A stretch of DNA of 35,370 nucleotides from Minisyncoccota bacterium (GTDB lineage Bacteria; Patescibacteriota; Microgenomatia; UBA1400; UBA12028): the NCBI GenBank assembly GCA_016211945.1, contig JACRHV010000006.1, positions 110,723 to 146,092 on the forward strand. The letters are read 5' to 3'. Both the position numbers and the translations under genes were made by a program. The number at the start of each line of letters is the position of its first letter. The first letter of the stretch is position 1. The notes under the pieces were generated by a model, which was not told the DNA's origin, ran no database searches, and saw only the letters and a list, made by a program, of their open reading frames with translations. This document shows positions 27,186 through 34,028 of the stretch, piece after piece.

Positions 27186-27349
27186 GATGCTCCTTGAAAC
27201 TCATCTGTTTTCTTTCACGATACCCGATACTATACCACATCAAGAGATGGAGAAAATATAGGGTGAGGTTGTAGGAAAAGAAATGGTTGAAAACGTGGAT
27301 ACATACGTATACAATACACACTTCATTTAGGAAAAAGTGGGATGCGTTT

Positions 27350-28315
27350 ATGAGTAAACCACAAGAGACAAAACAATTTAATCAATCTCCTGGTTTTCCT
27401 GCAACAGGAGATGAGATAGAGTCATCTGAACAAGGAATACCCTTCATTCCGCTCAAGGATGTTTTGAGGTATGTCATAGAATCAACCGCTGTTATAGCAG
27501 CTCTTCTTGGAATGCAGCATCTTGGTCTTTTCCAGCCATATATTGAGTTATTAAATGCAGTAAAGCAATTAGAAATTCTTCAAGAAATGCTTGCCAAACC
27601 TCAAGAATTACTCAAACGTCCAGAACTTTTGGAAGAATATACAATGCTTTTTGGATTTTTACTTGGCTGCGCAGAAAATGTCTACCTTCTCATGGATATT
27701 TTGTTTCTCAAAGGTCTTATATCAACCGCAACAATGAATTGGGCCTCTACAGGAACATACACAATTGAGGACGATACGGGAGTTCGTGTGCAAGAAGTAC
27801 GATGTGGAGATCCACGAATTGAAAAGTCACTGAAGAGATCGGTCATTTTAGGTGTTGGATATAACGGTGGAAATGCATTAATGCATATGTTTGGAGGTAT
27901 GTTGCTGAATAAAATTGCTGGTGGTGGAGTAGGAGCAAAATTTGCTGTTGGTTATCTCATGGGAAGAAATTTCCCAACATTTCTCTATCAAACTCTTAGT
28001 GATTCGGTAGATATGGTAAAAGAAGGATTGGGAAGAAGGTTGTTTGTTGGGGCTGTGATAAAAAAACATCATCCGCACGATTGTGGATGTGCGATGTGTG
28101 CGATAAGCGGAATTGTTCCGCACGGACTGAAACACTCAAAGGGTGAAAGTCATAAGGCTAAGATAAAGATGTTGGATGCAATCTCAATACCAGCGCAACT
28201 TGTTCATCAAATTGCCTATCGTCCATTGGCGAACCTCGTTCTTACCCCAGCAAGTTGGGGGGGGTATTTTATACGACCAACATTAGAAGTGGATCATATT
28301 GAAGAACATCATTAA
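27350..28315 (+). CDS. Membrane-associated protein with a Cys/His cluster, unknown function
   Basis: 321 residues from ATG 27350; an earlier in-frame ATG (27287) would place the TACAAT box (27310-27315) inside the gene, so it is not preferred. Hydrophobic segments occur near 40-58, 98-120 and in a Gly-rich region (LGVGYNGGNALMHMFGG, then GGGVGAKFAVGYLMG). Residues 240-250 read HHPHDCGCAMC, a cluster that could bind metal. No family recognised. Convergent with the FemAB-like gene; the stop codons overlap on TTAA. Confidence 0.65.
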   Translation: MSKPQETKQFNQSPGFPATGDEIESSEQGIPFIPLKDVLRYVIESTAVIAALLGMQHLGLFQPYIELLNAVKQLEILQEMLAKPQELLKRPELLEEYTMLFGFLLGCAENVYLLMDILFLKGLISTATMNWASTGTYTIEDDTGVRVQEVRCGDPRIEKSLKRSVILGVGYNGGNALMHMFGGMLLNKIAGGGVGAKFAVGYLMGRNFPTFLYQTLSDSVDMVKEGLGRRLFVGAVIKKHHPHDCGCAMCAISGIVPHGLKHSKGESHKAKIKMLDAISIPAQLVHQIAYRPLANLVLTPASWGGYFIRPTLEVDHIEEHH

Positions 28316-30443: not shown

Positions 30444-30471
30444 TTGTTTTTATGTATGAATATTGTATAAT
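30444..30471 (+). promoter_or_regulatory. Sigma70-type promoter of toxin-antitoxin pair 2
   Basis: -35 TTGTTT (30444-30449), 16-bp spacer, -10 TATAAT (30466-30471), 6 nt to ATG 30478. Confidence 0.6.
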
Positions 30472-30477
30472 TATTGT

Positions 30478-30711
30478 ATGAAAACATTAAACATTTCTCT
30501 TCCAGAAAAACTTCAAGAGGAGGCAAGCCTCTTGGTGAAGCGTGGTCATTATGTTTCTTTCAGTGATCTTGTTCGTACTGCAATACGATCTCTTTTGGAA
30601 AGATCGGTCTATGATTCGTGGTATGAAGAAACAAAAGGTGATGTAAAAAAGGGAAAGGCTATTATCCTTGAAAATAAAAAACAATTACGTCGATATATGG
30701 CGGGACTGTAA
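30478..30711 (+). CDS. ParD/CopG-like ribbon-helix-helix antitoxin of pair 2
   Basis: 77 residues from ATG 30478; the promoter decides this start over an upstream ATG at 30463. The N-terminus KTLNISLPEKLQEEASLLVKRG and YVSFSDLVRTAIRSLLE is a standard ribbon-helix-helix: strand, helix, turn, helix (quoted in two parts). The C-terminal half is charged and would bind the toxin. RHH antitoxins normally repress their own promoter, so the -10/start region is the likely operator. The toxin gene follows after 5 nt. Confidence 0.82.
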   Translation: MKTLNISLPEKLQEEASLLVKRGHYVSFSDLVRTAIRSLLERSVYDSWYEETKGDVKKGKAIILENKKQLRRYMAGL

Positions 30712-30716
30712 TAGAG

Positions 30717-30977
30717 ATGCGCACAGTATTTTCCGTTCATTTCCAAAAAGATTTAAAAAAAATAATAAAGAAAAATCCGGGATATAAGAAAAAAATAACA
30801 GCCAGTATTGAAAAGCTCATGGAAAATCCACAACATCCGTCTTTACGACTTCAAAAACTTTCTGGTCAACATAACTGGTCTATTTCTCTTGATAGATCAA
30901 TACGCATGATTTTTCGCTATGAAGAAAATACGCTCTATTTCACAAGAATAGGAACGCATGACGAACTATATATGTAA
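30717..30977 (+). CDS. RelE/YafQ-like toxin of pair 2
   Basis: 86 residues. It shows the RelE-superfamily pattern: basic N-terminal helices (FQKDLKKIIKKNPGYKKK), then NPQHPSLRLQKLSG, WSISLDRSIRMIFRY and the closing IGTHDELY, with the Arg and His expected in the active cleft. Probably a ribosome-dependent mRNA interferase. It is a paralogue of the toxin at 3026-3298, although the antitoxins differ. The pair is inserted between sufS and sufU. Confidence 0.87.
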   Translation: MRTVFSVHFQKDLKKIIKKNPGYKKKITASIEKLMENPQHPSLRLQKLSGQHNWSISLDRSIRMIFRYEENTLYFTRIGTHDELYM

Positions 30978-31386: not shown

Positions 31387-32472
31387 ATGAAGATTCTCGA
31401 TCTCAAAACTCTCCCCGTTGATCAAGTCATTCAGGAGACTGTCCATGTTCTATCTGAAGGAGGTCTTGTGGTGTATCCAACAGAAACGACCTACGGCATT
31501 GGCGTTGACGCAACGAATCAATTCGCGGTAGATAATCTTTTGAAATATAAAAAACGACGTGAAGGAAAACCCCTTTCTATTGCGGTATTTGATGAATACA
31601 TGGCCGCATATTATGTTCAGTTGAACGAAAAAGCACGCGAAATCTACGCAACATTTTTACCGGGGCCAGTAACAGTTGTTTCAACAGGAAGACATGTGGT
31701 TGCACAAGGGGTGGAGTCGGAGGTCGGAACGTTGGGCATTCGTATTCCCAACTATCCACTTGTACTTCAAATAGTGAAAGCGTTTGGAAAACCGATTACC
31801 GCAACAGGGGCCAATGCATCGTATAAAAAACGCCCATATTCGATACAAGATATTTTCAATCATATTTCTGAGCGTCAAAAAGCACGGATTGCGTTAGTGT
31901 TGGATGCGGGTGAGCTTCCGCATAACGAACCGTCAACAGTGATAGACACAACATTGGATGACGTAATGGTTTTGCGGCAAGGAAAAATTTCATTTTCTGA
32001 AAAAAATGTAAAGATAACGAAAAATGCAGAAGAAACGCAAATACTTGGGAAGCAATTGATGTCAAAGTATAAAAATATACTGACGTATAAAGCGATTGTA
32101 TTTTGTTTACAAGGAGAAATGGGAGCGGGGAAAACGCAGTTTGCAAAGGGCATAGCACAAGCGTTGGGAGTACACCAAACAGTGAGTTCACCAACCTACA
32201 CCCTCTCGAATGAGTATGTATTTGAAGCAGAGGGAAAAAAGACAAAGTTCATTCATATTGATACATGGCGTTTATTTAATAGTAAAGAATTTTTAGAACT
32301 AGGATTCGAACATATGATTGATGCGTGTGATGTTATTGTGATTGAGTGGGCGGAAAAAATTGAAGATGTTCTCCACCAATTTGGTGATGAAGCAAAACTT
32401 CTCTGGGTAATGATTGACCAAGGGAAAAAGGAAAATGAGAGAATCATTCATGTTGGAGATATGGCTCTATGA
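31387..32472 (+). CDS. TsaC-TsaE fusion protein (t6A tRNA modification)
   Basis: 361 residues. Residues 1 to about 205 are a TsaC/YrdC/Sua5-type threonylcarbamoyl-AMP synthase: VVYPTETTYGIG, KYKKRREGKPLSIAV, LPGPVTVV, GIRIPNYP, TATGANAS and PSTVID. From about 208 the chain becomes TsaE, the ATPase of the TsaBDE complex: Walker A GEMGAGKT (243-250), SSPTYTLSNEY, HIDTWRL and the conserved IEWAEKI. The two are normally separate proteins. The open frame is continuous with no stop between the domains. The last 4 nt overlap tsaD (ATGA), so the t6A genes are one unit. A TACAAT box ends 10 nt before ATG. Confidence 0.92.
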   Translation: MKILDLKTLPVDQVIQETVHVLSEGGLVVYPTETTYGIGVDATNQFAVDNLLKYKKRREGKPLSIAVFDEYMAAYYVQLNEKAREIYATFLPGPVTVVSTGRHVVAQGVESEVGTLGIRIPNYPLVLQIVKAFGKPITATGANASYKKRPYSIQDIFNHISERQKARIALVLDAGELPHNEPSTVIDTTLDDVMVLRQGKISFSEKNVKITKNAEETQILGKQLMSKYKNILTYKAIVFCLQGEMGAGKTQFAKGIAQALGVHQTVSSPTYTLSNEYVFEAEGKKTKFIHIDTWRLFNSKEFLELGFEHMIDACDVIVIEWAEKIEDVLHQFGDEAKLLWVMIDQGKKENERIIHVGDMAL

Positions 32473-33503
32473 TCATTCTTGCGATCGATACATCATGCGA
32501 TGATACTTCGGTGGCGATTTCGAGTGACAATGTTGTATTGGCAAACATTATTTTCTCACAAGTTGCACTACACAAAGAATGGGGTGGTGTGGTTCCAACT
32601 ATTGCAAAACGCGCACACCAAGAACACATTGATGGTGTGATTCAGAAAGCAATGAAACAAGCAAAAATGTCACTTTCATCAATAGAAGTGTTCGGGGTGA
32701 CGCAAGGGCCGGGGCTTGCCATTGCGTTGGAAGTTGGAATCGCGAAAGCAAAAGAATTGGCAAGTACATACAACAAGCCTTTGGTTGCGGTGAATCACAT
32801 GGAAGGACACTTGTATGCGAATTTTGCTGCAACGCATAGTAGTCAAAAAAAAGACATTCAATTTCCCGCGCTCGTATTATTAGTGTCAGGTGGACATTCC
32901 GATCTTTTCATTATGCGTGATCATGGACACTACGAAAAATTAGGGGAGAAATTAGACGATGCAGTGGGAGAGGCATTTGATAAGGTGGCGCGTATGCTTG
33001 GCCTTGGATATCCTGGTGGTGCATTGCTCGCAAAATTAGCAGAAAAAGGCGATTCATCAATCTATAAATTTCCAGTACCACTGCATCAAGTGAAGGATTT
33101 TAACTTTAGCTATTCTGGATTAAAAACGGCGATTCAACGCGTCATAAAGGAAAAAACAGCGAATGGCACACTGTTAGCACAATATGAAATTTGTGATATT
33201 TCAGCATCATTTCAACGCGTTGCAATACACCATCTCATTGAAAGAGTTGAACGCGCACTTCAAATATATGAAGTGAAAAGTTTATTGTTGGGAGGCGGTG
33301 TTTCTGCAAATCTTCTTTTACGAAAACATTTGAGAAATATAGCAAAAAAATATCATGTCGAATTTTTCTATCCAAAAAATAAAAAGTTATGTATGGATAA
33401 CGCTGCGATGATTGCGGTAACGGCGTGGTACAAGGCGATGCGTGGAGAATTTGTAAAAGATTTTGACAGAAATCCTGGTATGAGCATTGAGAGTTCTCAC
33501 TAA
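32469..33503 (+). CDS. tsaD: tRNA N6-adenosine threonylcarbamoyltransferase TsaD
   Basis: 344 residues, normal length. TsaD transfers threonylcarbamoyl to A37 of ANN-decoding tRNAs. The ASKHA-fold ATP motifs are present (AIDTSCDDTSVAI, LLVSGGHSDL, LLLGGGVSAN). The metal ligands are His110 and His114 in NHMEGHL and Asp310 in LCMDNAAMIA. It overlaps the TsaC-TsaE gene. A TsaB gene, its usual partner, is not seen in the window. The stop overlaps the stop of the small convergent gene (CTAA). Confidence 0.96.
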   Translation: MIILAIDTSCDDTSVAISSDNVVLANIIFSQVALHKEWGGVVPTIAKRAHQEHIDGVIQKAMKQAKMSLSSIEVFGVTQGPGLAIALEVGIAKAKELASTYNKPLVAVNHMEGHLYANFAATHSSQKKDIQFPALVLLVSGGHSDLFIMRDHGHYEKLGEKLDDAVGEAFDKVARMLGLGYPGGALLAKLAEKGDSSIYKFPVPLHQVKDFNFSYSGLKTAIQRVIKEKTANGTLLAQYEICDISASFQRVAIHHLIERVERALQIYEVKSLLLGGGVSANLLLRKHLRNIAKKYHVEFFYPKNKKLCMDNAAMIAVTAWYKAMRGEFVKDFDRNPGMSIESSH

Positions 33504-33775
33504 CGACTGTTAACTTGAATAAATACAAGGGGAAGTGGAGTTTCCAGTGGATAGTTCGGAAAAGATCTTCCATCACCATTCACTTTCCCATCTGTGTCGG
33601 GGATAACTTGATCCGCTGTTGCTCCAACTAACTCATTAACCCAATGGAGATTATGTTGAGTTGTCAGTATTGTAACGACGAATTTTCCACCCTCAACTTT
33701 AACCGAAAGATCTGATGTAAGCGGATAATGATTCCAGGCGGATTTTTGTTCTAAATATGCGTGAATTTTTGGCAT
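33500..33775 (-). CDS. Small protein of unknown function (second of a pair)
   Basis: 91 residues from ATG 33775. The open frame extends upstream to 33967, but that part overlaps the preceding gene in another frame. The chain has a beta-rich pattern (LSVKVEGGKFVVTILTTQ) and a Pro-rich end (YPLETPLPLVF). It begins 4 nt after the stop of the gene at 33780-34028. The two may be separate coupled genes, or one gene broken by a frameshift; homologues would decide. No family recognised. Confidence 0.5.
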   Translation of the reverse strand: MPKIHAYLEQKSAWNHYPLTSDLSVKVEGGKFVVTILTTQHNLHWVNELVGATADQVIPDTDGKVNGDGRSFPNYPLETPLPLVFIQVNSR

Positions 33776-33779
33776 GATT

Positions 33780-34028
33780 TTATGTACCCGAACGCATTGA
33801 TAATCCATCAGATTCTGATAGCATTTGATTTCCAAGATATCCTGGACCAGCATAAATAACAAAGTTTTCATATCTCTTTTGTATTTCTTGAGGAAGTCTT
33901 TCAAATAATTCAAGAATAGCATCGGGGAGAAGACCACTAACATCCACCCCTCGCAGTACCTCAACATCTTCAGATTGAAGGCTTAAGAGAAAAAAGAATT
34001 TTTTATTTGAGTCAATTTGTCCATTCAT
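33780..34028 (-). CDS. Small protein of unknown function (first of a pair)
   Basis: 82 residues from ATG 34028, chosen because GGTGA lies about 6 nt upstream; ATG 34040 is also possible. The chain is soluble, with a strand (KKFFFLLSLQ), an acidic helix (DAILELFERLPQEIQKRYEN) and FVIYAGPGYLGN. It ends close to the start of the next gene, 4 nt away. Divergent from the YjjX-like gene. No family recognised. Confidence 0.5.
   Translation of the reverse strand: MNGQIDSNKKFFFLLSLQSEDVEVLRGVDVSGLLPDAILELFERLPQEIQKRYENFVIYAGPGYLGNQMLSESDGLSMRSGT

Follow-up and report, generated by a model that had tools for sequence, protein, structure and literature searches.

In the window analysed here, a stretch of 35,370 nucleotides from a Minisyncoccota bacterium (contig JACRHV010000006.1), TsaC and TsaE are encoded as a single chain that is coupled to tsaD, in a genome in which TsaB is not detectable, and the TsaD belongs to a single clade whose TsaB-binding interface is charged. 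Together, these features make it probable that the fusion and TsaD form a t6A synthase that functions without TsaB, encoded by a cassette that arose once and then spread horizontally, the function being predicted from sequence. The first-pass annotation of this DNA had pointed to the fusion and its coupling to tsaD; the larger point, which it missed, is that TsaB was not detected anywhere in the genome and that the TsaD comes from a distinct clade, one that has given up the TsaB-binding surface.

The fusion gene and its coupling to tsaD

The fusion is an open reading frame of 361 codons on the plus strand (31387-32472), of which residues 1-203 (31387-31995) form the TsaC (L-threonylcarbamoyl-AMP synthase) domain and residues 204-361, with the stop codon, the TsaE (P-loop ATPase) domain (31996-32472). 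The naming of both domains in the first-pass annotation is borne out by Pfam and NCBIfam matches over cut-off: Sua5_yciO_yrdC (PF01300) lies at residues 21-199 (3.5e-43) and TsaE (PF02367) at residues 212-345 (3.6e-31), and the chain scores 163.6 bits with TIGR00057 (cut-off 123.2) and 80.6 bits with TIGR00150 (cut-off 60.1). The TsaE domain carries the motif GEMGAGKT (32113-32136), which we take to be its Walker A motif, and the P-loop residues G243, G246, G248, K249 and T250 are invariant across 20 aligned fusions. In an AlphaFold2 model of the fusion (pLDDT 90, pTM 0.60) the individual domains are confident and their mutual placement is unusable; the TsaC part matches Sua5/TsaC2 structures with Z scores of 25-27 over about 200 residues, and the TsaE part matches TsaE structures with Z scores of 17-19. 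Two smaller features of the chain also deserve mention. Residue 294, in the TsaE domain, is Trp in 51/52 fused and Tyr in 45/46 unfused proteins (HxDxW versus HxDxY), and the TATGAN motif of the TsaC domain has GAN in family f1 (the window, G001, G002 and G003) and SAN in most other fusions.

The adjoining tsaD gene (32469-33503, plus strand) overlaps the fusion by the four bases ATGA (32469-32472), so that the coupling described earlier is plainly present in the sequence. Among 66 records with both open reading frames on one strand, the gap between fusion and tsaD is at most 97 bases in 52 and an exact 4-base overlap in 13, counts that rest on mechanically assigned starts and may include some genomes under two handles. 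The protein scores 377 bits with TIGR03723 (cut-off 296.1) and 207.5 bits with arch_KAE1, below that profile's cut-off of 375, and is thus of the TsaD type and not the Kae1-type transferase of KEOPS. Its model (pLDDT 93) has E. coli TsaD as the top match (Z 46, rmsd 1.4-1.6, about 330 residues). The metal-binding residues H110 and H114 (HMEGH, 32796-32810) are both His in 38/38 TsaDs of the fusion-associated clade and in 29/29 unfused TsaDs, and the third ligand, D310 (33396-33398), is invariant in 18 aligned TsaDs and is also Asp in those fused rows from named genomes that reach this position. Across the whole genome, PF01300, PF00814 and PF02367 each give one match over cut-off, all of them at the fusion/tsaD locus.

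The joining of TsaC and TsaE in a single frame is common among relatives of this organism. It was found in 57 of 88 genomes of the window's order (a count in which G362 is included from two pieces lying in one frame), in 23 of the 286 genomes of a phylum sample, and in the closed genomes CP011210.1 (Ca. Beckwithbacteria) and NZ_AP019860.1. This is the survey of CPR genomes that the first-pass annotation had proposed, and it also disposes of the refuting case raised there, a sequencing error hiding a stop near codon 205: because the single-frame fusion is conserved in many genomes, including closed ones, a sequencing error is not its source. Nothing was found in favour of a sequencing or assembly artefact, and the chance of one is negligible.

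Elsewhere in the window, a ribbon-helix-helix protein and a YafQ/ParE-like toxin are encoded between sufS and sufU (30463-30977, plus strand; Pfam matches), apparently a toxin-antitoxin pair inserted in the suf operon, and two open reading frames lack any Pfam match (33500-33967, minus strand, 155 aa; 27287-28315, plus strand, 342 aa).

TsaB in fusion genomes and their relatives

The first-pass annotation had remarked that TsaB is not nearby, and this observation extends to the whole genome. Searches of the window's genome for TsaB with PF00814, with TIGR03725 at E<=1 and with a profile built from five short TsaB proteins of related unfused genomes at E<=10 all matched the TsaD locus alone. 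The same is true of most fusion genomes in the survey that had been proposed for TsaB. In the phylum sample, two or more TIGR03725 matches occur in 1/23 fusion genomes versus 196/263 others (Fisher p 2e-11), and in the order, short TsaB occurs in 1/57 fusion genomes versus 17/31 others (Fisher p 6e-9), although both p values overstate the association, as the genomes are not phylogenetically independent and the TsaD clade represents one event in the gene tree. Likewise, the absence of a TsaB match in 22/23 fusion genomes of the phylum sample must be read beside the 67/263 other genomes with fewer than two TIGR03725 matches, in which either the profile overlooks some TsaB or TsaB is absent too; a single match can also represent TsaB with TsaD overlooked, and most of the genomes are drafts. 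The five fusion genomes of the phylum sample that consist of a single contig (G008, G024, G057, G122 and G186) each have one TIGR03725 match, and within family f16 the fusion genomes G057 and G186 have one match each and the unfused G331 has TsaB.

TsaB of the related unfused genomes is about 106-121 aa long, comprises the N-lobe, has GPGxFTGxR in most cases, and is often encoded beside tsaE. More generally, TsaB proteins of about 100-150 aa, consisting of the N-lobe alone and a conserved short tail, are seen in G005, G006, G014, G016, G029 and other genomes of the order (L047-L062). The only fusion genome of the order with a short TsaB is G011. There we note a possible INTERMEDIATE: the TsaB gene adjoins a gene that we take to be VanZ-like, as it does in relatives, with no tsaE found between them. 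The G011 protein reads GPSPDLNVG where GPGSFTGTRVG is usual, such that the GPGxFTGxR motif is broken, and we read it as a probable decaying leftover.

It is also worth considering whether another gene might travel with the cassette. Clustering of the open reading frames from 21 loci, in windows of at most about 14 kb, left the fusion (21/21) and tsaD (20/21) as the only recurring full-length genes; no third conserved gene emerged, and a hidden partner beside the cassette was rejected on this basis. Two clusters of short open reading frames (median 68 and 61 aa, from 16 and 12 loci) are taken to be shadows of the fusion and tsaD. Apart from these loci, searches for TsaE, for a TsaC-TsaE fusion and for TsaB/TsaD gave no match in G080 (one contig, completeness 100) and G219 (two contigs, completeness 95), where the whole t6A pathway has possibly been lost.

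Fusions of other kinds help to place these observations. Two genomes, G144 (L359) and G289 (L360), encode both domains in one chain as the window does, but in the opposite order, TsaE-TsaC, and in each a TsaB-like open reading frame follows directly; both genomes have two TIGR03725 matches, and the GPG part of the motif is altered in the G289 TsaB-like protein. The idea that fusion itself causes the loss of TsaB is contradicted by these examples, of which there are only two, and because they keep a TsaB-like gene, the loss appears to go with the TsaD clade and not with fusion as such. A further arrangement is present in G247 (L222, 1095-2024, plus strand), where a 310-aa TsaC-TsaB fusion lies directly after tsaE. 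Among viral contigs no cassette was found, the single match covering the TsaE part only.

A separate TsaD clade with a charged face

In a tree of 67 TsaD proteins, one per genome after removal of 13 near-duplicates, a branch supported at 100 separates the 37 from fusion genomes and that of G048 from the rest; this tree and the others described here are quick ones, with support from SH-aLRT alone. In G048, TsaE stands alone ahead of tsaD, so that a split TsaE adjoins a TsaD of the fused clade. The clade does not originate in the interface columns described below, as its support is still 99 when these and the C-terminal columns are deleted. Furthermore, when family f9, which contributes one TsaD from a fusion genome and two from other genomes, is forced into a single group, the cost is 181.5 log-likelihood units. 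The TsaC and TsaE domain trees require two label changes each, compared with about 22 and about 32 in shuffles, and the fused TsaC and TsaE domains are therefore nearly single groups. The TsaDs of fusion genomes group together even in families whose other members have a different TsaD, a pattern that fits a cassette transferred between lineages.

What distinguishes this clade is concentrated on one part of the protein. As published, two TsaD helices pack on TsaB and TsaE touches other parts of TsaD (PMC11648230), and in E. coli TsaD, L89 lies at the interface and the substitutions S97E, S97R and F100E abolish both homodimers and heterodimers (PMC4330362). When 38 TsaDs of the fused clade are set against 29 unfused ones, the ten most clade-specific columns include eight that fall at 42-62 or 80-102 (with boundaries drawn after the columns were seen, hypergeometric p 1.5e-6). 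In the window's TsaD, the first of these regions overlaps the helix at residues 43-65 (32595-32663), which corresponds to one that packs on TsaB in other bacteria (PMC11648230) and in which K47, Q51 and D55 replace small or apolar residues; the second contains the interface helix within residues 84-100 (32718-32768; 87-100 in the model), where A84, E88 and E96 correspond to V85, L89 and S97 of E. coli and residue 99 to F100. The columns that have changed in the fused clade are 44, 47, 51, 55, 84, 85, 88, 96 and 100. Position 88 is E in 38/38 fused-clade and L, M or I in 29/29 unfused TsaDs, position 47 is K or R in 38/38 versus A or S in 29/29, and E at position 44 is found in unfused TsaDs only, in 29/29. 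The equivalent of E. coli S97 is E, K, D, Q or N in 33/38 fused-clade TsaDs. Over eleven face positions, picked after the data were seen, charged residues occupy 210 of 418 cells in the fused clade versus 53 of 319 in the unfused set. The TsaE ATP-site contacts D158, K162, K166 and K213, assigned from PMC11648230, are identical in all 38 and all 29 proteins, the printed T. maritima chain having E at position 162. In the fused clade, the helices that receive TsaB elsewhere have exchanged an apolar surface for a charged one, with the TsaE contacts and the metal site unchanged, and the state created by S97E in E. coli is close to the natural one of these TsaDs.

The cassette is found beyond the Patescibacteria as well. 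A wider scan of genome contigs brought up at least 577 relatives, and of the best 80 of these, 31 (L223-L253) hold both domains in one frame, several of them being the same genomes as some surveyed above under G handles; among the 31 are two from Aenigmarchaeota and, from Planctomycetota, a MAG and the closed Ca. Uabimicrobium amorphum chromosome (NZ_AP019860.1). Within these best 80, TsaB was found in 0/31 fusion genomes: 28 yielded their own TsaD, in one case together with a weak match in a frame of 580 aa, and 3 gave nothing; the sole non-fusion genome of this named set gave TsaB at 162 bits. Where the region is present in the fused TsaDs of the same set, again drawn from the best 80 of at least 577, position 47 is K or R in 28/28 and position 88 is E in 23/28. 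In each of nine fusion genomes tested, the fusion is the only TsaE match over cut-off. No second protein of the Kae1/TsaD family was found in Ca. Uabimicrobium amorphum or the two Aenigmarchaeota, and each of the two archaeal draft genomes has one PF00814 match, the cassette TsaD, with no separate Kae1. On one archaeal contig (L223, PFTQ01000027.1) the cassette is surrounded by archaeal-type S2, aIF2-alpha, DnaG and Hel308-like genes, and the other (L224, JAGVVZ010000001.1) carries an archaeal RqcH; the bacterial-type cassette appears to stand in for Kae1 in these two genomes.

A predicted TsaB-independent synthase and known t6A systems

In the mechanism that we propose, the TsaC domain would make threonylcarbamoyl-AMP (TC-AMP), and the tethered TsaE domain, with ATP, would dock on the TsaD surface used by TsaE in other bacteria, bringing TsaC next to TsaD, which would transfer the threonylcarbamoyl group to A37 of tRNAs; it is plausible that TC-AMP would be channelled from the one to the other. 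As the clade's TsaD lacks the apolar helical bundle for TsaB or for a second TsaD, the TsaB-TsaD heterodimer would no longer be part of the machine, and the TsaC-TsaE chain would take over the role of TsaB. The TsaC domain covering the altered helices is our first choice for how this might occur; TsaD might instead act as a bare monomer, and a homodimer like that of Qri7 is less likely. The cassette would have arisen once and spread by horizontal transfer, with its hosts losing their old tsaB, tsaE and tsaD. Two published observations count against this model: docking of TsaE on TsaD in T. maritima is reported to involve the C-terminal helix of TsaB as well (PMC11648230), and E. coli TsaE is reported to bind the TsaD-TsaB heterodimer only (PMC4330362). 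A precedent for TsaE docking without TsaB was not found in the parts of the literature consulted.

The main alternative is that TsaB is present and was overlooked, being too diverged or encoded elsewhere, in which case this would be an ordinary fusion in an ordinary t6A pathway. The incomplete detection by TIGR03725 in non-fusion genomes and the frequent shrinkage of TsaB in this phylum lend it some weight, but TsaB is easily detected in unfused genomes of the same order, the one short TsaB in a fusion genome of that order appears decayed, no third gene is conserved among the 21 loci, and the face that would receive TsaB is charged in this clade; we judge an overlooked TsaB unlikely. TsaB might also be dispensable if TsaD were a homodimer like yeast Qri7, which modifies tRNA in this form; E. 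coli TsaD can reportedly homodimerise through the same helices (PMC4330362), and Qri7 shares a common fold with the TsaD model (Z 35 over 333 residues). However, these are the helices that are charged here, with E at the L89 position throughout and mostly charged or polar residues at the S97 position, and E. coli S97E forms neither homodimers nor heterodimers (PMC4330362). In addition, TsaE is retained in these genomes whereas Qri7 uses none, and a homodimer seems quite improbable. The reading that we prefer remains the TsaB-free synthase of fusion and TsaD. Its fullest form, in which a two-gene synthase of single origin has spread among Patescibacteria, Planctomycetota and Aenigmarchaeota and displaced both the native bacterial machinery and the archaeal KEOPS Kae1, with TsaC in the seat of TsaB on TsaD and the maker of TC-AMP thereby at the transferase, is put forward only tentatively.

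With TsaE and TsaD naturally retained, TsaB dispensed with and the changed surface of TsaD on display, such a system would open the role of TsaB to direct test. Should TsaC prove to sit at TsaD, the old idea that TC-AMP, being unstable, is passed on directly instead of diffusing could be tested as well, and if the cassette does stand in for Kae1 in two archaeal genomes, this would be an unusual case of a near-universal enzyme being replaced. A TsaC-TsaE fusion or a TsaB-free system with TsaE was not found in the titles and opening lines of abstracts of open-licence papers. According to a 2022 review, TsaD is accompanied by TsaB in every bacterial genome (PMC9654439), although a 2024 study of Proteobacteria reports some genomes, mostly small ones, without tsaB (PMC11332805).

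It is informative to set the predicted synthase beside the systems that are already characterized. The bacterial pathway of TsaC with TsaD-TsaB-TsaE (E. coli, T. maritima, A. aeolicus) uses the same protein families, and the window has its TsaC domain, a TsaE with an intact P-loop and a TsaD with the HxxxH and Asp metal ligands and conserved contacts to the TsaE ATP site; it differs in that TsaC and TsaE are one chain, TsaB is not detectable in the genome by profiles, and the TsaB-binding helices are altered, the face no longer being apolar. The mitochondrial pair of Qri7/OSGEPL1 and Sua5/YRDC needs no TsaB, two proteins being reported to suffice (PMC4330362, PMC7102964), and in gene content the window fits this pattern; Qri7 differs in that it dimerises through helices that are charged in the window's clade and has no TsaE. 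TsaN, described as a modular TsaD-TsaC-SUA5-TcdA enzyme (PDB 8ide), is also a natural fusion of t6A enzymes, although there TsaD is fused with TsaC, whereas the window fuses TsaC with TsaE. Finally, HypF and TobZ hold YrdC and Kae1-like domains in one chain, so that the maker of a carbamoyl-adenylate is tethered to the transferase, and a reaction channel has been described for enzymes of this type (PMC9654439). In contrast, TsaC would here be tethered to the ATPase that is proposed to dock on the transferase, and the substrate would be tRNA.
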